Shown here: piece by piece, positions 36,462 through 60,913 of the stretch | How the letters are laid out: each line of letters begins with the position of its first letter | How positions within the stretch are numbered: position 1 is the first letter of the stretch | DNA from: Thermoplasmata archaeon | GTDB lineage: Archaea; Thermoplasmatota; Thermoplasmata; Methanomassiliicoccales; Methanomethylophilaceae | Direction of reading: 5' to 3' | NCBI GenBank assembly: GCA_015063285.1 | Contig: SUST01000002.1 | Span: 124,001-188,000 of the forward strand | DNA length: 64,000 nucleotides | Made by a program: the position numbers and the translations under genes | Notes under the pieces: generated by a model | Told to the model about the DNA's origin: nothing | Seen by the model: the letters and a program-made list of their open reading frames with translations, nothing else | Database searches by the model: none

Positions 36462-37706
36462 ATGATTCAGTGTCCGCGCGGTACAAGGGATTTCCTCCCT
36501 GATGAGATGGAGAAACGCAGGTTCTATGAGAACAGGCTCAGACATACCGCACAGACATTCGGTTTCAGGGAGATCGAGACCCCTATCTTCGAGGATGCGG
36601 AACTCTTCATCCTCAGGTCCGGACCCAATGTCCTCAAGGAGCTCTACGCTTTCAAGGACAAAGGGGACAGGGACATCGCGCTCCGTCCGGAGATGACGGC
36701 GCCTGCCATCAGGATGTTCGTCAACGGTATGAGCAACGATCCCAAACCGATCAAGATATTCTATTTCGGACAGTGCTTCAGATACGAGAGGCCTCAGAGC
36801 GGAAGGTACAGAGAGTTCTTCCAGTTCGGAGCGGAGCTGATAGGTTCCGCAACTCCCGAGACCGATGCGGAGGTCATCTGCATGGCAGCGTCCATGATCA
36901 AGGAGCTCGGTCTGAAGGATTACAAGATTCACATCGGACATATCGGAGTACTCAGGCAGGCCATTGCAGATGCCGGAGTCCCTAAAGAGAGGACAGCGGA
37001 AGTCCTTCAGAAACTCGACAAGAAGCTATACGACGAGGCACGCCCTCTCTTGGAGGACATGGGTGTAAAGGCCGATGTCATCGATGCAATCTTCACTCTC
37101 ACCGAGACCGTTGGGGGAACAGAGGTTCTCACAAAGGTCCCCGGAGAGGCAGGCGATTATCTCAGGCAGGTGACCGCCTACATGCACGCCATGGGTGTGG
37201 ATAACTTCGATATCGATCTCGGAGTCGTGCGTGGCCTTGATTACTATACAGGAATGGTCTTCGAGGCAGAGGCGCCCGCTCTAGGAGCGGAGAAGCAGAT
37301 CTGCGGCGGAGGTTCGTACACCCTGTCGGAGCTGTTCGGAGGGGAGAAGGTGTTCTCCACCGGATTCGCGATAGGATTCGACAGGATCCTGCTTGCCATC
37401 GAAAAGGAGGGACAGGTCTACGAGCCCAAGGGGATCGATGCATATGTCGTACCCGTATCCGATGATGTCAGGCTGAAGTCTGCTGAAATCGTTGCCTCTC
37501 TCCGCGCTGCAGGCGTCGCTTCAGACATCGACATCATGGGGCGCAAGATGGCAAAGGCCATGAAGTATGCTTCTGCAATCAGGGCGAAGTACGCGGTGAT
37601 AGTCGGAGCCAAGGAGCTTGAGGAGGATTCTGTCACTCTCAGGGATATGACTTCCGGTGAACAGAAGTTAGTGAAGATCAAAGAGTTGGTCGATTCCATC
37701 CGGTGA
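36462..37706 (+). CDS. hisS: Histidyl-tRNA synthetase
   Basis: A 414-aa class II synthetase. Motif 1 region GTRDFLPDEM is at the start. Motif 2 is FRYERPQSGRYREFFQFGAE near residue 110. The HisA motif VRGLDYYTGMVFE is near 258 and motif 3 FAIGFDRILLAIE near 305. The C-terminal anticodon-binding domain starts near 325. It charges tRNA-His. ATG 36462 is preceded by a TATA element (TTTTTATAT at 36432-36440), consistent with a leaderless or very short leader. An extra 11 residues upstream are possible but lack family similarity. Confidence 0.95.
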   Translation: MIQCPRGTRDFLPDEMEKRRFYENRLRHTAQTFGFREIETPIFEDAELFILRSGPNVLKELYAFKDKGDRDIALRPEMTAPAIRMFVNGMSNDPKPIKIFYFGQCFRYERPQSGRYREFFQFGAELIGSATPETDAEVICMAASMIKELGLKDYKIHIGHIGVLRQAIADAGVPKERTAEVLQKLDKKLYDEARPLLEDMGVKADVIDAIFTLTETVGGTEVLTKVPGEAGDYLRQVTAYMHAMGVDNFDIDLGVVRGLDYYTGMVFEAEAPALGAEKQICGGGSYTLSELFGGEKVFSTGFAIGFDRILLAIEKEGQVYEPKGIDAYVVPVSDDVRLKSAEIVASLRAAGVASDIDIMGRKMAKAMKYASAIRAKYAVIVGAKELEEDSVTLRDMTSGEQKLVKIKELVDSIR

Positions 37707-37708
37707 AA

Positions 37709-37741
37709 TAATTTAAGAATTCCGTAACATTCACCTGTGAA
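37709..37741 (+). promoter_or_regulatory. Promoter and small inverted repeat before the methyltransferase-HTH gene
   Basis: A TATA-like TAATTTAAG at about 37709-37717 is followed by TTCAC-CT-GTGAA (37730-37741). That inverted repeat lies near the expected transcription start, where a repressor would act. The gene downstream carries its own HTH domain, so autoregulation is plausible. Confidence 0.4.
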
Positions 37742-37775
37742 AAGGTAATAATACGTTCGTAAAGATTCCAATACC

Positions 37776-38906
37776 ATGACAATGGCCGATCGTGTCGTAT
37801 CTAGCACCGATGGCGATGATAAGGATAAGGTAATAGATTTTTGGGATCGTTATTCGAAACCGTTCAGTGATTACACCCGTGAAACCCTACAATATAATGA
37901 TTGGGTTGGAAAGAAGATATCTCTTCTTTTCCCAGACATTAACAACCTCAGGGTCGCCGATATCGGTACAGGTGCCGGATTCATGGCGATATCGTTGGCA
38001 CAATTGGGTCACGATGTTGTTGCCACAGATGTCAGTGAGAAGATGCTCGAGGAAGCAAGAAAGAATGCCGATGAATATGGTGTGAATATCGATTTTAGGC
38101 TTGATGACATAGAGCATACCAAATTGGAAAAGGAACACTTCGACATCGTGATACTCAGAGATGTGATCTTCAACATTAAGCACATCAGGGGAGCGTCATT
38201 TGAAGTCATAGGGCTGATCCGTCCAGGAGGGTACTTGTTCGTGGCAGATGGGAACTATTTTCTCCATTGTCATGATGAGGATTATCTTCACAGACATGAT
38301 TATTATTACGTTCGTGACAGGAAGAGCGAGTATCAAAAGATGACAGAAATGTCCGATTCATCTTATAGGGAATTGGAGGATACTGTCAAATCGTTCGAGG
38401 TCAATACTGTATGTCGGCCGTATGCAGATCTGCTTCTCTTAACTAGGTTTGGATTGGAGAACATAACCATCACTTGTAATGATCCGGACGAGTATCAGAG
38501 GCTGACCGAGTATGGTTGGGTAAAGGTCCCGTTTAGGTATACGCTTGTAGGTCAGAAACCATATGATGATAGTCAATCTGGTTTTATTAACGGTCATTTC
38601 ATTGAAAACATTTTCAAAGAAAAGGAAATGGTTGTAGAGAATCTCTCCAAGGTGTTCGATGCGTTATCCAACCCTGACAGGGTGAAAATTCTCAGTGTTC
38701 TTATCGAGGGTCCGGCAAATGTCGGAAAAATCTCTAAAGCGGTCAAACTTTCCGAGAAGATGACCTCATATCATCTGACTCTGATGAAGGATATTGGCAT
38801 CGTAAATAGTGAGAAAAATGGGAGGGAAGTCATATACTCCCACACAGACATGCCAGCAGTTCTGACTCTATTTAAAATCGCCTTCGAGATTTCATCGCAT
38901 CATTGA
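37776..38906 (+). CDS. SAM methyltransferase fused to a C-terminal ArsR-type helix-turn-helix
   Basis: A 376-aa two-part protein. Residues about 1-270 are a class I methyltransferase: motif I is VADIGTGAGFMA (60-71), then VVATDVS and the acidic loop DIVILRDVIFN. Residues about 285-376 are a winged helix-turn-helix (ALSNPDRVKILSVLIEG... SEKMTSYHLTLMKDIGIV... REVIYSH) of ArsR type, without the metal-binding CVC motif. The HTH is C-terminal, the reverse of most ArsR-methyltransferase fusions I know. It heads a FecBCD locus, so it may sense the imported compound or its methylated product. The methyl acceptor is unknown. ATG at 37776 or 37782 are both possible. Confidence 0.88.
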   Translation: MTMADRVVSSTDGDDKDKVIDFWDRYSKPFSDYTRETLQYNDWVGKKISLLFPDINNLRVADIGTGAGFMAISLAQLGHDVVATDVSEKMLEEARKNADEYGVNIDFRLDDIEHTKLEKEHFDIVILRDVIFNIKHIRGASFEVIGLIRPGGYLFVADGNYFLHCHDEDYLHRHDYYYVRDRKSEYQKMTEMSDSSYRELEDTVKSFEVNTVCRPYADLLLLTRFGLENITITCNDPDEYQRLTEYGWVKVPFRYTLVGQKPYDDSQSGFINGHFIENIFKEKEMVVENLSKVFDALSNPDRVKILSVLIEGPANVGKISKAVKLSEKMTSYHLTLMKDIGIVNSEKNGREVIYSHTDMPAVLTLFKIAFEISSHH

Positions 38907-38948
38907 TTGTCCAAATATTTTTGGGATGTTATGTTGTCGAACTGTCTG

Positions 38949-39000
38949 TTTTAAATATGGTTCGTTAAAATCATCGTTTGGATTATTCATCCAACGGTGA
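38949..39000 (+). promoter_or_regulatory. Promoter and ribosome site of the locus A binding-protein gene
   Basis: TTTTAAATA at 38949-38957 fits a TATA box, and GGTGAT at 38995-39000 is an SD site 4 bp before ATG 39005. The leader ATCCAACGGTGATATA resembles that of the paralogous gene at 62297 (ATCCAAGTGATATT), suggesting common ancestry of both leaders. Confidence 0.5.
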
Positions 39001-39004
39001 TATA

Positions 39005-40381
39005 ATGGAAAATCAGAAAACAGTGCTCATCGTGGCAATCGTGGCGATAGTAGCCATCGTCGCTGTGGGCGCATTCATCTTAATGAATAACAATGGGAAC
39101 GGAGGAGGGGATGTTGACCCGGACGATTACCTTACACCTAACTCTGGTAATGCAAAGGTGACTTCAATAGACACAAAACTTCTCGTATTCGGAAATGCGA
39201 ACAACGACGTCTATCTCAACAAGGAAGATGTGACTTTTATTCAGAACATTGTTGACGGAAAGACTAAATGGGATAAAAAGGCCAACCCTCTCGCCGACAC
39301 TAACGCTGATGGCGAGATCACAGACAAGGATGTAGGTCTTCTCAAAGAGTTCCTCGACAACAATAAGGCTCCCATGTTCTATCTCAACTCGCTTCTTGAG
39401 ACCAAGAAGATTCAGTTCCCGCTTACAGGAAATATCGTTATTTCACAGTACATCGATGCCGATATGCTGAAAATCTGTGGAAAATACGATCTGATTACTG
39501 CTAGTACTGATGATTCAATTACACCTAATGAGGATGTTTATCCTGGTTCGTCCAAGTGGAAGAATGTCGGCGGATATCCGTACGATTACGAGAGGGTAGT
39601 AGCCTCTGGTGTAAGTATTACCCTTGGGCAGGATTACAATTATGATGAGACTTTCGACAGACTCGTAGAGAATGGATACTCCTCTTACAGGCTCGACACT
39701 GTTAAGCTGTATGAGGGAAGGTACATGAACAACATCGATGCTGTCAATTGTACCGTCACACTAGGAGCTCTCTTCGGAAGCTTCAATGTATCTACCTACA
39801 AAGAATACCTAAATTATGTTGCCAACATTAACGAAATCGTTGAGAAGGCAACCTCGGGTATTACTACCTCCAAGAGCTATTCTTTGGTCCTTTCCCACGC
39901 TACTACTTCGCCTGCTGACATGGGAATAGACAACAGGTCTTCTGGACTGAAAAACTACTCTGATGTTGACATGGCAGAAAGCCTGAAGATGACCCCCTCC
40001 TATCCAGTCGGAGCTGAGGGATACATAAGAGGATTGACCATTGAGGACATTCTCAAGTACAATCCTGACGTAATCTTCATCGAGGAATCCAACGGTTCCC
40101 AGACATACGATGATTTCCATGCAAAGGTTAACGAGATCGCTGGATGGTTCAAGTCATCCGGATACAAAGGTACCATTATTGGTATACATTGGAGTGTCTG
40201 CGGAAGCTCTGCTTTCGTAGCCGCACTGCCCCTTTTGGCAGTTTATACATACGGGACCAGCGTTTACAGCGAAGATTCTGCATGGCAGGATTTGGCGACC
40301 TATTATAACAGCTTCCTCGGAGGAGATTACACCGTAGATGAATTGAAGCATTCGATCTACGGGCCTTTCAAAGTTCAGTAA
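39005..40381 (+). CDS. Membrane-anchored FecB/BtuF-like binding protein with dockerin-type domain (locus A)
   Basis: A 458-aa extracytoplasmic substrate-binding protein. An N-terminal hydrophobic segment (about residues 7-27) acts as anchor; no lipobox is seen. Residues about 55-115 form a dockerin-like pair of EF-hand-type calcium loops (VFGNANNDVYLNKED, ADTNADGEITDKD). The rest is a periplasmic-binding-protein-2 domain of the siderophore/cobalamin type. It should capture a metal complex or corrinoid outside the cell and deliver it to the FecCD permease that follows 60 bp later. The dockerin may bind a surface scaffold or stabilise the protein. The ligand is not predictable. Confidence 0.87.
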   Translation: MENQKTVLIVAIVAIVAIVAVGAFILMNNNGNGGGDVDPDDYLTPNSGNAKVTSIDTKLLVFGNANNDVYLNKEDVTFIQNIVDGKTKWDKKANPLADTNADGEITDKDVGLLKEFLDNNKAPMFYLNSLLETKKIQFPLTGNIVISQYIDADMLKICGKYDLITASTDDSITPNEDVYPGSSKWKNVGGYPYDYERVVASGVSITLGQDYNYDETFDRLVENGYSSYRLDTVKLYEGRYMNNIDAVNCTVTLGALFGSFNVSTYKEYLNYVANINEIVEKATSGITTSKSYSLVLSHATTSPADMGIDNRSSGLKNYSDVDMAESLKMTPSYPVGAEGYIRGLTIEDILKYNPDVIFIEESNGSQTYDDFHAKVNEIAGWFKSSGYKGTIIGIHWSVCGSSAFVAALPLLAVYTYGTSVYSEDSAWQDLATYYNSFLGGDYTVDELKHSIYGPFKVQ

Positions 40382-40400
40382 TCACTTGGATAAACCTTTT

Positions 40401-40419
40401 CCCCCTCTTCATGAGGGGG
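40401..40419 (+). terminator. Intercistronic hairpin between binding-protein and permease genes
   Basis: CCCCCTC-TTCAT-GAGGGGG lies between the two cistrons, without a T-run after it. It may attenuate or protect the upstream message, giving more binding protein than permease. Confidence 0.45.
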
Positions 40420-40440
40420 TCTATAAACGGATGTGTGCAA

Positions 40441-41586
40441 ATGAAATTCATCGATGATATAAGCGAGGATCCGCTGATAGCCAGGCCTCTGGTCAATGTG
40501 GTCAGGAAGTGGTCCTCAAACGAAGAAGAAGATGAACCGGGATTCAAGAAGCAGATGATGGATTATCATCGTACCCTTAAAAGACGCTTAGTTTTCATCC
40601 TTCTTTGTGTCGCGATCATGGTGATAGCTGCGGGATATGCGGTCGCATACGGTCCTTTGGATATAAGCTTCATAGACACATACATTACGATTTGGAACCA
40701 CATAATAGGGAATATTACGGATACCGGGATGGATTACATAATCATAACTGTCAGATCTCCAAGAATAGTTGCCGGAATAATCGGAGGCATAGGTCTGGCA
40801 GTATGTGGTGTCGTCATGCAGAGCGTTCTTAGGAACCCCTTGGCAGATCCGTATACGACGGGAGTCTCCTCGGGAGCAGGATTCGGAGCGACCTTGGCTA
40901 TAACCGCTGGTTTTTCAGTTGTCAGCAAGACGCCGACCATTATTCTGGCATTCCTGTTCTCCATGTTGCCGACACTAGCCATCATCCTAATGTCGAGGCA
41001 CAAATCCTCTTCGTCACCAACGGTTATGATCATGTTCGGTATCGGACTAATGTACATATTCAACGCATTTACCACAGTGATGATGTTGTGGTCTAACCCA
41101 GATGACCTTGCAGCAGTCTATCAGTGGCAGGTTGGAAGCCTTGCAAAGGTCACGTGGGATGACATTCCATATATGCTTGCTCTGGTAATACCTGGAACAC
41201 TTTTGGTCCAATTCATGGCAGGCAAACTCAACGTATTGGCCACAGGGGACGATAATGCAAAGGCATTAGGGCTTAACCCGCATCGCACTAGGATTCTCTT
41301 ATTGGCACTCACCGGCCTGATATCGGCGGCAGTCGTTAGTTTTACCGGAATTATAGGTTTCGTCGGTCTAGTGACCCCACACATTGTTAGGATATTCATA
41401 GGTGCGGACAACAGGTACCTTATCCCCGCATCAGCACTTTTCGGTGGCATGTTGATGGTAGTGGCAGATCTGCTTGGAAGATGCGTGATCCCGGATGCCA
41501 CGCTCCCTGTAGGGGTGGTCATGGCGTTCGTCGGAGGCCCAACCTTCATATGGCTGCTGATGAGGAAAGGAAACAAGGCATGGTGA
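40441..41586 (+). CDS. FecCD-type ABC permease (locus A)
   Basis: A 381-aa permease of the BtuC/FecCD family with about ten membrane segments after a soluble N-terminus of about 50 residues. The family signature ITVRSPRIVAGIIGGIGLAVCGVVMQSVLRNPLADPYTTGVSSGAG near residues 103-145 is very clear, as is the GFVGLVTPHIVRIFIG coupling region near 305. It homodimerises to form the channel. ATG 40441 is 60 bp after the binding-protein stop. A longer in-frame start at 40411 falls in the intercistronic hairpin and is less likely. Confidence 0.94.
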   Translation: MKFIDDISEDPLIARPLVNVVRKWSSNEEEDEPGFKKQMMDYHRTLKRRLVFILLCVAIMVIAAGYAVAYGPLDISFIDTYITIWNHIIGNITDTGMDYIIITVRSPRIVAGIIGGIGLAVCGVVMQSVLRNPLADPYTTGVSSGAGFGATLAITAGFSVVSKTPTIILAFLFSMLPTLAIILMSRHKSSSSPTVMIMFGIGLMYIFNAFTTVMMLWSNPDDLAAVYQWQVGSLAKVTWDDIPYMLALVIPGTLLVQFMAGKLNVLATGDDNAKALGLNPHRTRILLLALTGLISAAVVSFTGIIGFVGLVTPHIVRIFIGADNRYLIPASALFGGMLMVVADLLGRCVIPDATLPVGVVMAFVGGPTFIWLLMRKGNKAW

Positions 41587-41590
41587 TATC

Positions 41591-42598
41591 ATGGGATTCA
41601 AAGATTGGAAACTGGAGCTCAAGAATGCCTTCAAAGAGGATGAGGACATACAGTCCGAACTCGCTGAGATTGTTATGAAGAATGTTTCTTTTGGATACGA
41701 GCCAGAGAATCCTGTCATAACAGATATTAATTTGACACTGAATGAGCCTGGGCTGTACTGTATCGTCGGCCCTAACGGGGTGGGGAAATCCACTTTGATC
41801 AAGTGCATGTGCAAAATTCAGGATCTTACTGAAGGCGATGTTACGATAAATGGGCGCAGCATTAGGGCTATGAGTCACAAGGACGTCTCCAAGTACATCG
41901 GATATGTGCCGGTATCAACAGGTGACGTATTCTCTATGTCTGTTCTCGAGACCATACTGGTCGGGTGCCAAAGCAAGAATTCAGATGAATCAAAGATGAA
42001 GGCTGTGTACAAGAGCATGAGCCTACTGAACATCAACGATCTCGCTTCGAAGAATTTCGGCGAATTATCCGCTGGGCAGCACCAGAAGGTTGCCATAGCT
42101 AGAGGCATCGTACAGAAGCCTAAGATATTGATCTTGGATGAACCCACGGCGAATCTGGATGTCAAATATCAGGTGTATGTGACGGAATTGTTACGTGCAC
42201 TGGCAGAGCATGAGAAGATGATGGTGTTGATGATCAGTCACGATCTAAACATGTCCGCGAAGTACGCACATAAGGTCATAATGATGTCTAGGCCCGGAGT
42301 CATCTATAAGATAGGAGATCCCGAGGAGGTCTTGACTAAAGAGAACATCGAAGCGGTATACGGAGTGTACTGTAAGATTCTGCATGATGATGAATTCGGT
42401 GTACCCATAGTGGTTCTTGGACAATCCATGATGGATGAGGAAGGGAATCTTGTGGGCGAAAACAGTAAAAATGCAATGGAGGAATTGGAAAATGGTAGGG
42501 AAAGAAGCAGGGAAATCAACGCTAAAGTTCTGGGGCGAATCGGCCAGAGGATACAAAGAGGGCGTGAAGAAAGAGCTCGAGAGCAAGAACATAAGTGA
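41591..42598 (+). CDS. FecE-type ABC ATPase with C-terminal extension (locus A)
   Basis: A 335-aa ATPase. Walker A GPNGVGKST is near residue 61, the signature LSAGQHQKVAIARG near 158 and Walker B ILILDEP near 177. The usual FecE is about 255-270 aa, so this carries an extra charged tail of about 65 residues ending RGREERAREQEHK. The tail is encoded mostly in the 107 bp that overlap the following methyltransferase gene in another frame. The tail may be dispensable, or the overlap may couple the two proteins. Four bp separate it from the permease stop. Confidence 0.92.
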   Translation: MGFKDWKLELKNAFKEDEDIQSELAEIVMKNVSFGYEPENPVITDINLTLNEPGLYCIVGPNGVGKSTLIKCMCKIQDLTEGDVTINGRSIRAMSHKDVSKYIGYVPVSTGDVFSMSVLETILVGCQSKNSDESKMKAVYKSMSLLNINDLASKNFGELSAGQHQKVAIARGIVQKPKILILDEPTANLDVKYQVYVTELLRALAEHEKMMVLMISHDLNMSAKYAHKVIMMSRPGVIYKIGDPEEVLTKENIEAVYGVYCKILHDDEFGVPIVVLGQSMMDEEGNLVGENSKNAMEELENGRERSREINAKVLGRIGQRIQRGREERAREQEHK

Positions 42599-43970
42599 TA
42601 AGTGGATCAAGAAGATTCTCGAGAATGCTCCCGATAAGGATAAGCTCAGAATTCTCGATATCGGTTGTGGCCCTGGATTCTTCACTATCAACTTCAGCAA
42701 ACTCGGGCATGATGTTACGGGAATCGACATCAGCCGCGAGATGGTGATGGTAGCAAAGGAGAATGCCGAAGAACAGGGTTTGACATGTGACTTCAAGGTA
42801 ATGAACGCTAATACATTGGAATTCCCTGACAACACATTCGATCTGATCATCAACAGAGTCGTCACATGGACGCTGCCCGATCTCTACGAGTGCTACCGTG
42901 AATGGAGGAGGGTATTGGCTCCAAACGGTCGTCTCATCGTCTTCGATGCCAACCATTACGCCAACATTTTCGACGAGGAAAGGGCAAAGAAGATGAGACT
43001 GATGATGCGTCAGCACATTCTGGATGGAAAGGAACCCTTCACTGATCATTTCGATTTCCACGTCAGGTGGAATTACTGGGGGGACTGCCCTATGATTGGA
43101 ACTCCCAGGCCCAAATGGGACAGGAACATGCTCTACAAGCTATGCTTCGTGAACATCTACACCGAGGAGAATCTCTTCGGGGATATGGAAGGGAGCGGGA
43201 CAGCAGAGCCTATGTTCATGATCAGAGCGGAGAAGCCCAGTCAGGAAGAGGAAAACGAATTCATAGTCAATGAGTATTGGAACGCTATCGCTGGTTGCGT
43301 GAGCGCCAGAGCGGTGCAGATGCTCTCAAACGGTCTTGCGGAGAAGTATGCGGACGCCATCGCTTCCAAGATTCCCGCAGGTTCCAAAGTCCTGGACCTG
43401 GGAACGGGATCAGGTGTTGTGGCCATCTCTCTCGCGAAGAAAGGATTCAAGGTCACAGGAGTGGATCGTGCGTTCGCTATGATCGATTTGGCGAAGCTCA
43501 CGGCGCAGGAGCAGAAGGTCGATGTAGAGTTTATCGAGGCCGATGCTGAATGCACCGGACTCGACGAAGGTTCGTTCGATGCAGTGATTCTCAGGAATGT
43601 CGTATGGAACTCATTCCACCCCGAGAACATACTGAATGAGGCCGAGCGTCTTCTCAAGAAAGGAGGCACATTGATCATTACCGATGGTAACTGGCAAGCG
43701 GATGTTGGTGATTGGGAGAATGCGAATCCCAAGTCCGATGTGTTCCCTAACTGCAAGAAGCGTGACCTAGGGCTCGGAGCTTATGACGTCATCAACGTCT
43801 ACTATAACAGGCTCCCCTTGAATCTCGAGAGAAGACCTTCCTGGGATGACAAGAAGCTGAAGGCCGACGGCATGACTGTCGAGGTCTGCGAGAAATTCGA
43901 TGATCCCATGATCACAGAGGATCTCAAGCCGATACTCAAGAGCGGATTCATAGTAGTGGCTAAGAAATGA
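42492..43970 (+). CDS. Tandem double-domain SAM methyltransferase (locus A, first paralog)
   Basis: A 492-aa protein with two class I methyltransferase domains. Domain 1 has ILDIGCGPGFFTI (residues 54-66) and VTGIDIS; domain 2 has VLDLGTGSGVVAI (about 301-313) and VTGVDRA. Each is preceded by an FWGESARGYKE/EYWNAIAG-like helix, so the protein arose by duplication. A conserved RPKWDRNML segment ends domain 1. Such tandem architecture suggests successive methylations or one active and one substrate-binding domain. ATG 42492 is preceded by GGAGG at SD distance. It overlaps the ATPase gene by 107 bp, placing it firmly in the import operon. A hairpin follows its stop. Confidence 0.88.
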   Translation: MVGKEAGKSTLKFWGESARGYKEGVKKELESKNISDKWIKKILENAPDKDKLRILDIGCGPGFFTINFSKLGHDVTGIDISREMVMVAKENAEEQGLTCDFKVMNANTLEFPDNTFDLIINRVVTWTLPDLYECYREWRRVLAPNGRLIVFDANHYANIFDEERAKKMRLMMRQHILDGKEPFTDHFDFHVRWNYWGDCPMIGTPRPKWDRNMLYKLCFVNIYTEENLFGDMEGSGTAEPMFMIRAEKPSQEEENEFIVNEYWNAIAGCVSARAVQMLSNGLAEKYADAIASKIPAGSKVLDLGTGSGVVAISLAKKGFKVTGVDRAFAMIDLAKLTAQEQKVDVEFIEADAECTGLDEGSFDAVILRNVVWNSFHPENILNEAERLLKKGGTLIITDGNWQADVGDWENANPKSDVFPNCKKRDLGLGAYDVINVYYNRLPLNLERRPSWDDKKLKADGMTVEVCEKFDDPMITEDLKPILKSGFIVVAKK

Positions 43971-43978
43971 ACTATCCA

Positions 43979-44000
43979 GCCGTCCGAGTCATCGGACGGC
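43979..44000 (+). terminator. Hairpin after the double methyltransferase gene
   Basis: GCCGTCCGA-GTCA-TCGGACGGC lies just after the stop and is followed by TTACCCTTTT. The MATE gene begins 22 bp later, so termination may be partial. Confidence 0.5.
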
Positions 44001-44022
44001 TTACCCTTTTCGAAGGGATCTG

Positions 44023-45399
44023 ATGGTAGAGGAAACAGAGAACATTAGCATAATGGGTACCAACCCCGCGAAAGCCATCAGGACAATGTCCATTCCCCTG
44101 ATGTTCGCTTTCTTGCTAGCCAGCGTTCAATTGTATATAGATTCGTTCTGGTGCGCAGGTCTGGGCCCCGATCCGAACTCCGCCATAACGCTGGCTGGGC
44201 CTATATATTGGATAATCCTGGATGTGGGAGCGGGTCTGGGTGTTGGTGCATCTACGGCAATATCCCGTGCACTGGGTGCTAAGAACTATGCCCGTGTGAA
44301 CAGTTTGGCATCCCAGATCATCGTCCTGATGGTTCTGGTCTCTATCGTGCTGTCATTTATCCTGTTCCTTGTATCCGAACCGCTGATCTCATTCATGAGC
44401 GGAGGGAAGAATGTTGACCTCAGTATGGAGTATCTGATTCCATATCTCGTCTGCAGCCCGTTCCTGATGTTGAACGGAATCATCTTAGGAATGCTGAGGG
44501 CCGAAGGGGAGGCCAGACGCTCGTCAGCTCTTTCCATATTCGCATCCTTAATCAATATTATCATGGATCCTATCCTGATCTATGTTCTCGATCTTGGTCT
44601 CTTCGGTGCTGCTTGGGCTACATGTCTGTCATTCATCGTTACCACAGTGATTGGGCTGTGGTGGTATCTTCGCGGCAGACTGTTCATCAAACCTTCATTC
44701 AGGAACTTCCATTTCATAAAGGAGCAGATTTGGGATATCTGCAGGGTCGGAATACCTCATTCCTTGGAGCTTGCGGTCATACCCATGCTGATGATGCCCC
44801 AGAACTCTCTGGTCGTCGCTGTGGGAGGGACGGATGGAATGATTACCTACAGTCTCCCATACCGTTACATCTCCATTGCAATGGTGCCGGCACAGGCCAT
44901 AGCAGCCGCCATGATTCCCGTCGCATCTTACTCTATAGGAAGAGGGGACAGGGAGAATGTCATGTTCAGTTTCAAATACTCCGCCAAGCTGATAGCACTT
45001 ATCAGTATCCTTCTGACGATAGTCCTTATGATATTCGCGGATCCGTTCGCTTGGGCGTTCACATACACTGACGATATGGCGCAGTTCAGGGATGAGATAG
45101 CGATGGTGATCAGGATCTATGCTCTGGTCCTGATCACGATAACCGGAATACACCTGTGCTCATCGATACTGCAGACTCTATGCTATTCTCAGCTCGCTAC
45201 TGTTACGATGTTCATCAGGGAGATAATATTCCTGGTCTTGTTCTACATCTCGACTTTCTTCGATATGACTGCAATCTACTGGTCACTCGACATAGCAGAG
45301 ACGGCAGGCGCATTGCTGATGGTTGCATGCGTACTATATGCATTGAAAAAGACCATACCTAAGTCAGGAATAGTTATGGAAAGATTCAACTCTGTTTGA
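44023..45399 (+). CDS. MATE family efflux transporter (locus A)
   Basis: A 458-aa membrane exporter of the MATE/DinF type with about 12 segments; the first half has SFWCAGLGPDPNSAITL and the second MLMMPQNSLVVAVGG. An AGGGATCT ribosome site precedes its ATG. It lies 52 bp after the double methyltransferase and 2 bp from the convergent second double methyltransferase. It is therefore a natural candidate to export a methylated product or a detoxified ligand made by the locus. Its paralog is at 26.0-27.4 kb. Confidence 0.9.
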   Translation: MVEETENISIMGTNPAKAIRTMSIPLMFAFLLASVQLYIDSFWCAGLGPDPNSAITLAGPIYWIILDVGAGLGVGASTAISRALGAKNYARVNSLASQIIVLMVLVSIVLSFILFLVSEPLISFMSGGKNVDLSMEYLIPYLVCSPFLMLNGIILGMLRAEGEARRSSALSIFASLINIIMDPILIYVLDLGLFGAAWATCLSFIVTTVIGLWWYLRGRLFIKPSFRNFHFIKEQIWDICRVGIPHSLELAVIPMLMMPQNSLVVAVGGTDGMITYSLPYRYISIAMVPAQAIAAAMIPVASYSIGRGDRENVMFSFKYSAKLIALISILLTIVLMIFADPFAWAFTYTDDMAQFRDEIAMVIRIYALVLITITGIHLCSSILQTLCYSQLATVTMFIREIIFLVLFYISTFFDMTAIYWSLDIAETAGALLMVACVLYALKKTIPKSGIVMERFNSV

Positions 45400-45401
45400 T
45401 C

Positions 45402-46877
45402 TCAAGTTTTCTTGAATACAGAGATGAAACTGCTTCCGACTATCTCGCGGATGCTCCTGTCGATCTGCATGTCATCGAAAGTGCTGCTTTCCACCAATAC
45501 CATCCCAAGGCCTTGGCATTTGGAAATCTCCCATTCGGGACGGCATTTGATCGTGAGCGGTAGACTGCGGAATACGGGATCGATGACATCCGTTCCGCCG
45601 AAACCAGTCTCCCCAGATCTGATGCGGACCCCGTCATCGTTGAGTGTAGGACGTTTGGTAGACAGTTTGGAAATCCAGTCAGAATCGATAATGGCTAGGA
45701 CACCGTCTTTATTCAGGACTCTGAATGCCTCTTTCAACACCTTTTCGGGTTCATCGAACGCCCACAGGCTGTTACGGATGACAATAGAATCGAAATGATT
45801 GTCATCGAACGGAATCTCACAGGCATCCGCCATGATAAACTTAGCGTTCGATGCGACCTCCGATGCACATCTTTTGGCTTCCTTAATCATTTCTTTGGAT
45901 GAATCGATGCCTATCGCTTCAAATCCTTTAGAATCTGCTGCTATTGTCAGGAATCCGGCTCCGCAGGCCAGATCCAGAAGTTTGCCTTTACGGATGAGTA
46001 TCTCCAGATTGGCGAAATACTCTTTCCCTCTGCCATTTTTACACAGCCTGTGACATTTGCCGCTGTCAAACGGGGCTACACCATTCCAGTATTCATCTAT
46101 GAGCATTTTTCTCTCATCATCTTTCGATGGTTTCTCCGCACATATCAAGAACAGAGGAGCCGCATCTTCTGGATTCGGCATCCTGTCCAATTCTGTTCCG
46201 ATCAGGCAGCCGGTGCAAGTGACGATGTTGCGATATCTCAGCTTGATCAACATGTTGCGGTCCCATTGCGGACGAGGCATCCCCAGCATCGGGCGTGATT
46301 CCATGTATGAATTGCGGAACATGAAGCCAGTGTTTACAGAACCGGAATCCACTCCTGCGATTTTCATTTCACGAATGAGCTCCCTGAACACCCTGTCATG
46401 TTCTGGATCGAAGAAATTCCAGTTAAAGTTGGAATCAAAGACAAGTACGCGCCCGCCTGGCGAGAGCACTCTTCTCCATTCCTTGTAGCAATCCATCATG
46501 TTTGGAATCGTCCAGGTCACATTACGATTGATAATGAGGTCGAATGAATTGGAATCGAATAACAGGTTGTCGGCGTTCATTGGATGGAAATCGCATTTGA
46601 TCCCGAAGTCATGCGCATTCTTTTCGGCCTGTTTCAGCATTCCTATGCTCAGGTCGATACCGGTGACGTCATGGCCATCCATTGCCAAAGAGATGGCGAA
46701 AAAACCAGGGCCAGTTCCGATGTCAAGAACTCTAAGTTTCTCTTTTTTGGGGGCATATCTGTAGATAAGTTCCATCCATAGGTCTTTATCCTTAGATTTG
46801 AGCTGTTCCCTGACCAATTCGCTGTACTCTTCTGCAGCAGAGTCCCATGCCTCCATGGTTGTGGATTCCTCGTCCAT
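45402..46877 (-). CDS. Tandem double-domain SAM methyltransferase (locus A, second paralog, convergent)
   Basis: A 491-aa paralog of the protein at 42492. Domain 1 has VLDIGTGPGFFAI (about 50-62) and VTGIDLS; domain 2 has LLDLACGAGFLTI (about 299-311) and AIGIDSS. The RPQWDRNML segment after domain 1 and the MLIDEYWNGVAP start of domain 2 mirror the first paralog. It is transcribed from the opposite strand and ends 2 bp from the MATE stop, with no long spacer. The TATA-like TAATAATC about 30 bp upstream (46902-46912) suggests a leaderless message. Two diverged tandem enzymes in one locus suggest different acceptors. Confidence 0.88.
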   Translation of the reverse strand: MDEESTTMEAWDSAAEEYSELVREQLKSKDKDLWMELIYRYAPKKEKLRVLDIGTGPGFFAISLAMDGHDVTGIDLSIGMLKQAEKNAHDFGIKCDFHPMNADNLLFDSNSFDLIINRNVTWTIPNMMDCYKEWRRVLSPGGRVLVFDSNFNWNFFDPEHDRVFRELIREMKIAGVDSGSVNTGFMFRNSYMESRPMLGMPRPQWDRNMLIKLRYRNIVTCTGCLIGTELDRMPNPEDAAPLFLICAEKPSKDDERKMLIDEYWNGVAPFDSGKCHRLCKNGRGKEYFANLEILIRKGKLLDLACGAGFLTIAADSKGFEAIGIDSSKEMIKEAKRCASEVASNAKFIMADACEIPFDDNHFDSIVIRNSLWAFDEPEKVLKEAFRVLNKDGVLAIIDSDWISKLSTKRPTLNDDGVRIRSGETGFGGTDVIDPVFRSLPLTIKCRPEWEISKCQGLGMVLVESSTFDDMQIDRSIREIVGSSFISVFKKT

Positions 46878-46899
46878 TCGATAGCCTCATTTCATACTT

Positions 46900-46914
46900 T
46901 CCAGATGATTATTA
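46900..46914 (-). promoter_or_regulatory. TATA-like element of the second double methyltransferase
   Basis: The minus strand reads CTTTTAATAATCATC some 25-35 bp before the ATG at 46877. Confidence 0.4.
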
Positions 46915-47009
46915 AAAGGCTGAGCACGAGGCGGAAAACAATCTAAAAAAGATTGGATAGTTCCTCAATATCTAGGGCCATCAGTAGATGGATCGGATCA
47001 CCCTAACGC

Positions 47010-47408
47010 TCAATGTCTATCCATTTCCTCATTCAAAAGGAAATCAGCACGGGGTATGAGCTCTTCAGATCTGCGTACATTGCGGAACCTCACCTTAGGG
47101 ATCATCGAGGACAGATTCTTAGCATCGTCATAGAGTGCCTTCATGTCAGGATTCTTGACCTTGTATTCTCCGTTCATCTGTCTGATGACCAGTTGGGAAT
47201 CCATGACGAACTCTGCTTCGGTACCTTTCAGGTCCAGGATCTTTGCGATACCGGCTATGAGCCCTCTGTACTCGGCATAATTGTTAGTGTGGATCCCGAG
47301 ATACTCTGCATGCTCGTGTACGACCTCGCCGTCCTCCACGACAACGATCGCGTATGCGGACTTCCCCGGATTCCCTCTGGAGCCTCCGTCGGAGTATACA
47401 GTGAACAT
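47010..47408 (-). CDS. rnhA: Ribonuclease HI
   Basis: A 132-aa RNase H1-fold protein that cleaves RNA in RNA:DNA hybrids. The catalytic residues are visible: the first aspartate in VYSDGGSRGNPG, a glutamate in NYAEYRGL, an aspartate in FVMDSQLVIRQ, and a final Asp in IPRADFLLN. It is shorter than E. coli RNase HI and lacks the basic protrusion, as in archaeal/Gram-positive types. The ATG overlaps the panD stop by one base, so the two form a small operon. Confidence 0.92.
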   Translation of the reverse strand: MFTVYSDGGSRGNPGKSAYAIVVVEDGEVVHEHAEYLGIHTNNYAEYRGLIAGIAKILDLKGTEAEFVMDSQLVIRQMNGEYKVKNPDMKALYDDAKNLSSMIPKVRFRNVRRSEELIPRADFLLNEEMDRH

Positions 47409-58746: not shown

Positions 58747-59814
58747 TTATCTTCCCCATCCGCCCGTCCTTATTTTGAACAGGAAATAAAGGAATACGGG
58801 GCTTCCAATTAATGCTGTTACTGCTCCTACAGGAAGACCGGCACCGAATGACCTGGCAAGAGTATCTGCTGCAACCAGAAGGAAAGCGCCGGTTATTGCT
58901 GAACATGGGATCAGTGCGTTTGTTCTCGAACCTACAAGTAGTCTCGAAATATGGGGGACGACCAGTCCTACGAATCCGATGGATCCTGAAAAACTGACGG
59001 CGATGGAGGTGCACGCCGATACGATGACCATGCAGACGAGCCTGGTCCTTTTCGGATTCGTTCCCAGGGAGATCGCCATGTTGTCTCCGGCCGACATAAC
59101 ATCTAGTTTCTTAGAATGGGTAACTGTCAGAATCAGAAGTATTACTACTGAAAGAATGAGCAGAGGTATCGCTCCCCAAGTCACTTTGGAGACTGATCCG
59201 ATGCTCCATTCTATGATTTGCTGAAGAACTTCCGGTTCCGCATTATATTTCAGAACCATGGTAAACGCGGAGAAAATATACATCATTGCGATTCCGATGA
59301 GGATCAGCATTGTCGGGGTTGTTTTCCTTTTTACCGATATCGCTATCATCATAGCGCAGGGAATCATGGAGAAAACGAATGCGTTGAAGACTAGTCCTGA
59401 ATTGTCCGGAAGAGGTAGCAGTATGATTCCGAGTGTCAAACTGATGGTTACACCGAAAAGTGCCGCCGATGAGATTCCTGTGGTATATGGGTCTGCTAAC
59501 GGGTTGCGCACGCAGTACTGCATGATAGCTCCACTAACTCCAAGAATGCATCCTATAAAGGCGGCACCGATAACTCTAGGAAGTGTACCTTCGAATATTA
59601 GAGTGTCCCTTATGCGCTCATAATAGTTGCTGGGCTCAATCCCCTGAAGATGTTTGATAATTACTTCCCAGGATTCTGCGAAAGATATTCCAAAAGACAA
59701 CACACTTACCGAGTATGCCGATATTGCTATGGTGATGATCACTACGGTCAGGATCGCAATCCATCTCCTTCTAGATCTGGCCATATAACGGTCTTCTGCT
59801 TCTTCACCATACAT
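58747..59814 (-). CDS. FecCD-type ABC permease, second subunit (locus B)
   Basis: A 355-aa BtuC/FecCD permease. The signature LPRVIGAAFIGCILGVSGAIMQYCVRNPLADPYTTGISSAA occurs near residues 74-115, and GFVGLVVPHISRLLVG near 280. It overlaps the other permease gene by 11 bp. Locus B therefore has two different permease genes, so a heterodimeric channel is probable, unlike the single permease of locus A. Confidence 0.92.
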   Translation of the reverse strand: MYGEEAEDRYMARSRRRWIAILTVVIITIAISAYSVSVLSFGISFAESWEVIIKHLQGIEPSNYYERIRDTLIFEGTLPRVIGAAFIGCILGVSGAIMQYCVRNPLADPYTTGISSAALFGVTISLTLGIILLPLPDNSGLVFNAFVFSMIPCAMMIAISVKRKTTPTMLILIGIAMMYIFSAFTMVLKYNAEPEVLQQIIEWSIGSVSKVTWGAIPLLILSVVILLILTVTHSKKLDVMSAGDNMAISLGTNPKRTRLVCMVIVSACTSIAVSFSGSIGFVGLVVPHISRLLVGSRTNALIPCSAITGAFLLVAADTLARSFGAGLPVGAVTALIGSPVFLYFLFKIRTGGWGR

Positions 59815-60913
59815 AGGAATTCTTCCTAATTATCAAGTAGAGGAAAATCGGAGCACCTATCAGCGAAAGTGCAGCACCGATTGGTATGTTGTCGTAATCA
59901 GAGACTGCTCTGCATCCCATGTCCGCCAAGAGCATCAGAAGTATGGCGAGGCAGGATGCTGCGGGAATCACATAGCGGTTATCTGAACCAATCACCATGC
60001 GCACTATGTGAGGCGTTACCAGACCTACAAAACCAATAACACCCGCACAGCCCACGATGGCACCAACGATAAACGCTATGGCAACCAAGCAGATGATACG
60101 TAGATTATCTGGATCGACACCGAGACTTGTAGCGCTAGCATCGCCTAGAGACAAGAGGTTGAGTTGTTTGGACAGGAATGTGACAACTAATGAACCTACG
60201 GTCACGAAGAGGATTACGACCGGAAGAACATCCCAACCCACGGAACTCAGTGTTCCTGTTTGCCATGTGTAGATCACAGTTAGGGTCTCCGCGTCCACTG
60301 TGACAAGCAGGAATGTGTTTAGTGAGTTGAACAAATATGATAGGGCCACTCCTGCTAGGATCAGTGTTGAGGGTGATGACCTTGTCTTAGGAGACAGAAG
60401 AACAACCACAGCCATCGGAATCAAAGAAAATAGGAAAGATAAGATGACAATAGTTAGGCTGTCTCCATAATTGATAGAAAGGCCGATTACGACCGCTACC
60501 GCCAGACCTAAACAGGCTCCGGATGACACTCCGACCGTGTAGGGGTCCGCTAAAGGATTGTTCATTAGACTCTGCATTGATGCTCCTGCTATCGCCAATC
60601 CGATAGCGGCAACCACTGTGAATAACATCCTGGGGAGGGAGTTTCCCCAGATGTATGTGTCATCGAACCATTCCTTTGTGTAGATCTCATATTCTACGCC
60701 ACATAGGTGGTTATAGATCACTTCGAGGACTTCGATGAAGCTCAAGTGACGGCCATTGACTGTCATAGAGAAAATAGCAACCACAATTGTTGCTAAAATC
60801 ATTAATAAAAGGATAAGGAGTTTGTTCCTGGCAGAAGAGATGTAGCCTTCTGCCAGGTCGTCTTCGGATTCTATGTAGTTGTTAACTTTCGATTCTATAG
60901 ACTCCTCAGACAT
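59804..60913 (-). CDS. FecCD-type ABC permease, first subunit (locus B)
   Basis: A 369-aa permease with a charged N-terminus of about 30 residues before the first membrane helix. The signature LPRMLFTVVAAIGLAIAGASMQSLMNNPLADPYTVGVSSGA lies near residues 92-132 and GFVGLVTPHIVRMVIG near 295. It lies 7 bp downstream of the binding-protein stop and should pair with the neighbouring permease. It resembles the locus A permease more than its own partner does, as judged by the AGASMQS... and VTPHIVR segments. Confidence 0.92.
   Translation of the reverse strand: MSEESIESKVNNYIESEDDLAEGYISSARNKLLILLLMILATIVVAIFSMTVNGRHLSFIEVLEVIYNHLCGVEYEIYTKEWFDDTYIWGNSLPRMLFTVVAAIGLAIAGASMQSLMNNPLADPYTVGVSSGACLGLAVAVVIGLSINYGDSLTIVILSFLFSLIPMAVVVLLSPKTRSSPSTLILAGVALSYLFNSLNTFLLVTVDAETLTVIYTWQTGTLSSVGWDVLPVVILFVTVGSLVVTFLSKQLNLLSLGDASATSLGVDPDNLRIICLVAIAFIVGAIVGCAGVIGFVGLVTPHIVRMVIGSDNRYVIPAASCLAILLMLLADMGCRAVSDYDNIPIGAALSLIGAPIFLYLIIRKNSYVW

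Follow-up and report, generated by a model that had tools for sequence, protein, structure and literature searches.

What links methyltransferases to the cargo of a metal-chelate-type importer is the question raised by one locus in the genome (1.79 Mb) of a gut-type methanogenic archaeon. Within the window, the whole 64,000-nucleotide stretch of DNA that was analysed, seven open frames between positions 37776 and 46877 encode three methyltransferases (MT1, MT2, and MT3, with five methyltransferase domains), the FecB, FecC, and ATPase components of an importer, and a MATE exporter. A sequence-only reading of these genes had proposed a loop of import, methylation, and export acting on a metal ligand, a corrinoid, or metal or metalloid ions.

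Gene content and insertion of the island

Domains were called by comparing the island proteins to Pfam and NCBIfam profiles and their cut-offs. The first gene, MT1 (37776..38906, plus strand), joins a methyltransferase domain (PF08241, 66.6 bits) to a C-terminal ArsR-type HTH (PF01022, 40.3 bits vs a cut-off of 22; NF033788, 64.6 vs 55). It is followed on the same strand by a FecB-type substrate-binding protein (SBP; 39005..40381), a FecC permease (40411..41586; PF01032, 294.3 bits vs 26.5), the importer ATPase (41591..42598; PF00005, 109.2 bits), the tandem methyltransferase MT2 (42513..43970; two PF08241 stretches, with RPKWD and RPSWD), and the MATE exporter (44023..45399; TIGR00797, 159.7 bits vs 147.4). 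The open reading frame of MT2 opens at 42435 and overlaps the ATPase gene. The last gene, MT3 (45402..46877, minus strand), is again a tandem methyltransferase with two PF08241 stretches (RPQWD and RPEWE). The sequence-only reading was thereby borne out, including the three methyltransferase genes with five domains (motif I was present in each of the five), the MATE pump, and the shared direction of all genes but the last. The methanobactin MbnM model was not reached by the MATE protein (37.5 bits vs 285). Among the seven island genes, no opine dehydrogenase, nicotianamine-synthase-like enzyme, or ligand-assembly gene besides the methyltransferases was found; no Nik or Lar gene lies in the island, and Lar genes occur elsewhere in the same genome (L204).

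The membrane-anchored FecB was assigned from its operon position, its 50-57% identity to syntenic homologues, and a profile match to siderophore-type SBPs. Its start is most likely the ATG at 39005 and not the TTG at 38978 given in the list of open reading frames. Searched alone, the window FecB had no Pfam match at 0.001, and the dockerin-like double EF-hand within it (39200..39355, plus strand) scored 17.4 bits on PF00404 (cut-off 22.9). A profile built from 16 FecB homologues matched both siderophore-type SBPs (best E 3.5e-20) and solved dockerins (best E 1.2e-6), with a duplicated calcium-loop motif, and D-x-N-x-D-G was invariant across the 16 rows. The earlier description of a complete dockerin-type FecBCD importer therefore stands for the FecB-FecC-ATPase set, and its dockerin label stands for the 16-row profile but not for the single sequence. 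Dockerin-like SBPs are common to FecB proteins of the genus and also occur at FecCD loci without a methyltransferase, which rules out the EF-hand SBP as a mark of methyltransferase loci. The source genome carries 14 FecCD genes, and among the FecCD loci examined only that of the window and L049 have a methyltransferase.

The island is a discrete insertion, mobile and conserved. It occupies the gap between hisS and rnhA (37707..47009), which is 9.3 kb here, about 250 bp in one relative (G011), and roughly 10-60 bp in five others (G006, G018, G024, G008, and G022). When these six empty sites were compared to the window by blastn, the alignment broke at 37678-37685 and resumed at 47009-47020. In other members of the genus the same gap is filled by other genes. 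Island GC is 0.43-0.49, vs about 0.51-0.55 across most of the remaining window. The gene set recurs syntenically in five relatives (G024, G026, G029, G025, and G017), with MT2 identities of 79% in G024 and 65-67% in the other four. Since G024 carries the same cluster at a different genomic site, the cassette has moved. This recurrent synteny in five relatives, together with the discrete insertion, indicates that the grouping of the genes is more than chance.

The methyltransferase family and its neighbours

The window methyltransferases belong to a class I family that has its own signature (R-x3-W and R-P-x-W-D) and no family name. In an alignment of 56 domains from the window, the order, bacteria, and Methanosarcina (numbered according to the single-domain member of Gilliamella, L061), the residues W20, R127, W131, D157, R211, P212, and D215 were invariant outside the SAM-site residues, and W214 was conserved in at least 90% of the domains. 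The whole RPxWD signature is present in MT2a, MT2b, and MT3a, and reads RPEWE in MT3b. In MT1 it is partly lost (RDVIF and RPYAD, with the tryptophans gone), and across the aligned MT-HTH homologues the MT1 HTH has no conserved Cys/His metal site. On account of the lost tryptophans and an HTH free of conserved metal ligands, MT1 is probably a regulator that senses ligand or SAM rather than an enzyme.

The domains were not all close to housekeeping methyltransferases. The L061 protein stayed below the cut-off of every NCBIfam model, and the sole exceedance by a window methyltransferase domain set, that of the UbiG model on MT2 (127 vs 103), is a score summed over two domains. AlphaFold models of MT2 (pLDDT 80.7) and of the L061 methyltransferase (pLDDT 95.9) showed a generic class I fold with tied Z values of 18-21, and the structure matches of these two proteins gave no substrate clue. 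Searches of open-access papers on the RPxWD family and its metal link turned up no description of it, and no DNA match was found in E. coli genomes. A phage role was rejected (the viral matches were 34 weak ones, the best with E 3e-11 over a fragment, and none was close), as was a defence role (PADLOC matches corresponded to generic methyltransferase or HTH folds).

Gene neighbourhoods were collected from a scan of named genomes, from which 80 loci were retained: one from the genus (L058), 39 from outside the order (L059-L097), and 40 controls (L098-L137). L058 comes from the genome of Methanomassiliicoccaceae archaeon UBA71 and has 250 exact 60-mers in common with L196 of G027 across the 15 kb that were compared. 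Outside the order, 33 of the 39 loci carry the RPxWD signature, and a NikABCDE-type or FecBCD component lies within 4 kb at 23 of them, vs at 2 of the 40 controls, which are more distant methyltransferases, mostly actinobacterial and not taxon-matched (Fisher p 5e-9). The 23 comprise 20 loci with NikA, NikB, or NikC and five with FecC, two loci having both. Without the signature filter, an importer component was nearby at 26 of 39 loci.

Three signature loci adjoin nickel-pincer (Lar) genes. The gene order is LarA-like, MFS, LarC, LarE, LarB, methyltransferase, NikABCDE in Gilliamella (L061); methyltransferase, LarB, LarC, LarE in Parasutterella (L083); and methyltransferase, LarC, methyltransferase, SBP, FecC, ATPase, methyltransferase in a Lachnospiraceae member (L078). 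The Gilliamella NikA (609 bits vs 393) could be aligned over its full length to its E. coli counterpart, and it retains R97, R137, and H416, positions that we take to have a role in the E. coli protein. The NikA at L059 resembles it by motif, and most other partners do not. In Proteus mirabilis (L217), the methyltransferase gene directly precedes NikABCDE. The Nik genes of this species have been reported as PMI2943-PMI2947 in a paper whose main text does not contain the word "methyltransferase" (PMC5484520).

Within the order, FecCD was present within 4 kb at 33 of 40 fetched signature loci, and for six of the seven others the contig is short or ends nearby. Several of the order loci read fecB, methyltransferase, fecC, ATPase, with a divergent MT-HTH gene. 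A MATE gene was present at 8 of the 11 fetched loci with tandem methyltransferases (L038-L048) vs 2 of the 29 others in the order, and most loci with a single methyltransferase have no exporter. On a tree of 65 FecC proteins, the methyltransferase label needed 14 changes, at least 10 of them forced by well-supported branches; the partnership has therefore formed or broken repeatedly.

The methyltransferases of a NikABCDE-NikR cluster from the same order (L200) and of L092 do not carry the RPxWD signature. They are therefore sister enzymes only, which support the theme and not the family. Three Rfam scans of 27 loci returned scattered cobalamin, molybdenum, and other riboswitch matches. A cobalamin riboswitch lies between a methyltransferase gene and nikB at L092 only, and a molybdenum riboswitch lies beside FecC at L065. 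NikR boxes of known types were not enriched at the loci.

A shared palindrome and the proposed acquisition unit

A sequence with two mismatches to the palindrome ATTGGA-N7-TCCAAT (TTTGGATTATTCATCCAAC, 38977..38995) ends 9 bp before the FecB start at 39005, and the syntenic locus of G024 (L038) carries an exact copy in the same place. With up to one mismatch, the palindrome occurred 24 times in 637 kb of loci, vs 0-2 times in five mononucleotide shuffles, and the spacer of seven was specific (0-5 sites for other spacers from 3 to 12). With up to two mismatches it was found at 18 of 32 FecB starts (mean 0.38 and maximum 2 in 200 shuffles) and at 1 of 38 FecC starts. Against the reversed pattern, counts were 21 vs 1 in the source genome (one mismatch) and 82 vs 4 in 30 genomes of the genus (exact). 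Across the window as a whole, at up to three mismatches, there was no enrichment (41 sites vs 35 expected).

The same palindrome lies upstream of cbiM, a cobalt ECF gene, in 10 of 20 genomes (shuffle mean 0.6, maximum 3), and CbiM exceeds the cut-off of the cobalt CbiM model. It also lies 99-113 bp before nrdJ, which encodes a B12-dependent reductase, in three genomes (G000, G011, and G022). At NikR loci its occurrence was not convincing (4 of 20 vs a shuffle mean of 1.2 and maximum of 4). From these positions the palindrome is a probable operator, and it offers a candidate DNA site defining a metal regulon of the archaeal genus.

Judged by gene neighbourhoods, the link of the family to nickel and cobalt appears well supported. 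The nickel side consists of Lar and NikA, and the cobalt side of CbiM, NrdJ, and the L092 cobalamin riboswitch; the archaeal evidence leans toward cobalt and the bacterial evidence toward nickel. Because the family joins two unrelated importer types that share nickel/cobalt-chelate cargo, its enzymes are suggested to act on a chelating ligand. This is the best supported of the three options offered by the sequence-only reading, with NikABCDE, Lar, and CbiM recurring as neighbours or by way of the palindrome.

Our best explanation, which taken in full we hold at somewhat less than even confidence, is that the island is a mobile unit for the acquisition of nickel or cobalt chelates. FecB, which is attached to the membrane and bears the dockerin-like EF-hand domain, would work with FecC and the ATPase to import a small metal chelate. 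MT2 and MT3 would draw on SAM to make or alter a small organic ligand. In its finished or metal-free form this ligand would leave the cell through the MATE protein, closing a metallophore cycle, and FecBCD would recover it once loaded with metal. MT1 would sense ligand or SAM and tune the cluster, and a genome-wide regulator acting at ATTGGA-N7-TCCAAT would switch FecB together with the cobalt ECF transporter. As MATE is tied to tandem methyltransferases, the simplest cycle would run from completion of the ligand by the methyltransferases through export by MATE to recovery by FecBCD. The import-methylate-export loop first proposed has accordingly held up as a recurring gene partnership, while its chemistry and direction, like the identity of the ligand and the choice between nickel and cobalt, are parts of the model that we infer.

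The same genes could instead serve release after import, in which a foreign chelate of host, dietary, or microbial origin is methylated at its donor atoms, the metal is freed, and the spent ligand is expelled by MATE. The minimal conserved unit would fit, being an importer and a methyltransferase with neither exporter nor biosynthetic genes, as would the diversity of the FecB ligand domains (of the 15 further rows in the alignment, 13 share 17-27% identity with that of the window), which might be expected for varied foreign ligands. However, MATE tracks tandem methyltransferases rather than the importer in general, and we know of no precedent for demetallation by methylation; we consider this explanation unlikely.

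A serious rival is a corrinoid system, with a BtuFCD-type importer and methyltransferases that modify cobamides after uptake, or the compounds into which these break down. The expanded permeases of the order have been interpreted as BtuC, that is, as B12 uptake, in the account of Xie et al. 2024 (PMC10804542), and the palindrome common to the upstream regions of CbiM and NrdJ would suit such a system. The window permease, however, scored 212.3 bits on the BtuC equivalog model NF003001 (cut-off 334), and the model for corrinoid-protein-associated methyltransferases (CpaM, NF043040) was not reached (150.5 bits for MT2 and 113, vs 180). The B12-uptake reading is further weakened by the partnerships of the family with NikABCDE (20 of the 33 signature loci from outside the order), which to our knowledge does not carry corrinoids, and with Lar (three loci). 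We give it the same low probability as release after import.

Less probable again is that the methyltransferases modify a target other than the cargo (a protein, a tRNA, or a membrane component) and keep company with importers for regulatory or historical reasons. Outside the order, 10 of the 33 loci with the signature have no importer of either type nearby, and two plasmid-borne Selenomonas members sit among unrelated neighbours without metal-transport genes. Against this stand the family's repeated re-association with importers of two unrelated families and the placement of the methyltransferase gene between fecB and fecC at several loci.

Detoxification, in which metal or metalloid ions are methylated and the product is exported by MATE, is very improbable: it would account for the ArsR-type HTH fused to MT1 and for the pump, but the ArsM model NF008823 gave 98.6 and 89.3 bits vs a cut-off of 263, the 56 aligned family members share no invariant cysteine, the MT1 HTH has no conserved metal ligands, and high-affinity import runs in the wrong direction; methylation of arsenic or other metalloids was therefore abandoned as an option.

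Comparison with known systems

Gut methylotrophic methanogens have a strong dependence on nickel, for F430, and on cobalt, for corrinoid proteins. Their metal acquisition is poorly known, and FecCD permeases are usually read as B12 uptake, as in the account of PMC10804542. The recurrence of the family beside nickel/cobalt uptake genes in very different microbes points to an undescribed handling of scarce metals. Metal-chelate uptake is itself of a known kind, and a new metallophore class is a real chance. It is possible, although we regard it as doubtful, that gut bacteria and methanogens share an undescribed class of nickel/cobalt metallophores whose ligand is built or matured by RPxWD SAM methyltransferases and which is served by the unrelated NikABCDE and FecBCD importers; in the genus, such a system would be carried by mobile islands and included in an ATTGGA-N7-TCCAAT metal regulon. 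Family genes in culturable bacteria provide a concrete handle, as product and substrate can be sought by metabolomics.

Staphylopine-type (Cnt) systems combine SAM-using enzymes with an exporter and an importer. The proposed unit resembles them in this metallophore logic, and some importers beside family genes in bacteria score on NikA/CntA models. Unlike Cnt systems, the island lacks genes for an opine dehydrogenase, an epimerase, or a CntL-like enzyme, its enzymes belong to another class I family, and its importer is FecBCD and not of the Opp/Nik type. The tandem phosphoethanolamine methyltransferases (PMT) of plants and nematodes also have two class I domains per chain and were the top Foldseek match of MT2, but identity to MT2 is 14%, the fold is generic, and we know of no link of these enzymes to metals. 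BtuFCD cobamide importers share the permease family (PF01032) with the island, which differs from them in a permease under the BtuC equivalog cut-offs, a dockerin-like EF-hand SBP, and a methyltransferase partner. NiuBDE of Helicobacter pylori, a nickel importer of the FecBCD family, provides a precedent for nickel import by such proteins, but no methyltransferase or MATE partner is mentioned in the part of that report consulted here (PMC5140060). Clusters of NikABCDE with LarB, LarC, and LarE differ from the window island, which has neither Nik nor Lar genes, and are like it in containing the same methyltransferase family (L061, L083, and L078).

FecCD gene numbers and genomic settings

FecCD permease genes were strongly multiplied in the archaeal genus of the window (g1), with 2 to 43 genes per genome (E ≤ 1e-20) as compared to 0 to 9 in the other examined families of the order. 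The highest number was found in a relative of the window's source genome (G001, 43 genes); the source genome itself carries 14. A second FecBCD locus was located within the window (58774-60790), where two FecCD permease genes are accompanied by a substrate-binding protein with an EF-hand motif. This locus lies within GC-poor DNA (0.47) and contains no methyltransferase gene.

The gene content of the gap between hisS and rnhA, which holds the island in the window, varied among six relatives (G013, G015, G001, G017, G023, and G014; loci L259-L264), and the gap resembles an insertion hotspot.

Palindrome sites and nickel-pincer genes

An exact ATTGGA-N7-TCCAAT site, the candidate operator, was found at the start of a gene adjoining NikR (L281 7140-8567), the 476-aa product of which had no match in Pfam or NCBIfam. 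The palindrome was also present upstream of an MntP-type manganese efflux gene (L276 / L282 15008). Clustered homologues of LarC, LarB, and LarE were identified in the source genome (L204 7263-9954), and of 60 genomes, 29 carried LarC (PF01969); the genus of the window accounts for 26 of these 29.

Unusual FecB and MT-HTH frames

At three loci with tandem methyltransferases, the neighbouring FecB frame was unusually extended and contained two or three copies of the EF-hand motif (L039 8775-12722, L042 10275-13658, and L047 10124-13999); these frames apparently consist of repeated substrate-binding proteins. MT-HTH gene alignments from four genomes (G006, G010, G011, and G012) each contained one in-frame TAG, which could be subject to readthrough, as pyrrolysine is a known feature of this order (Methanomassiliicoccales), or else could end the frame.
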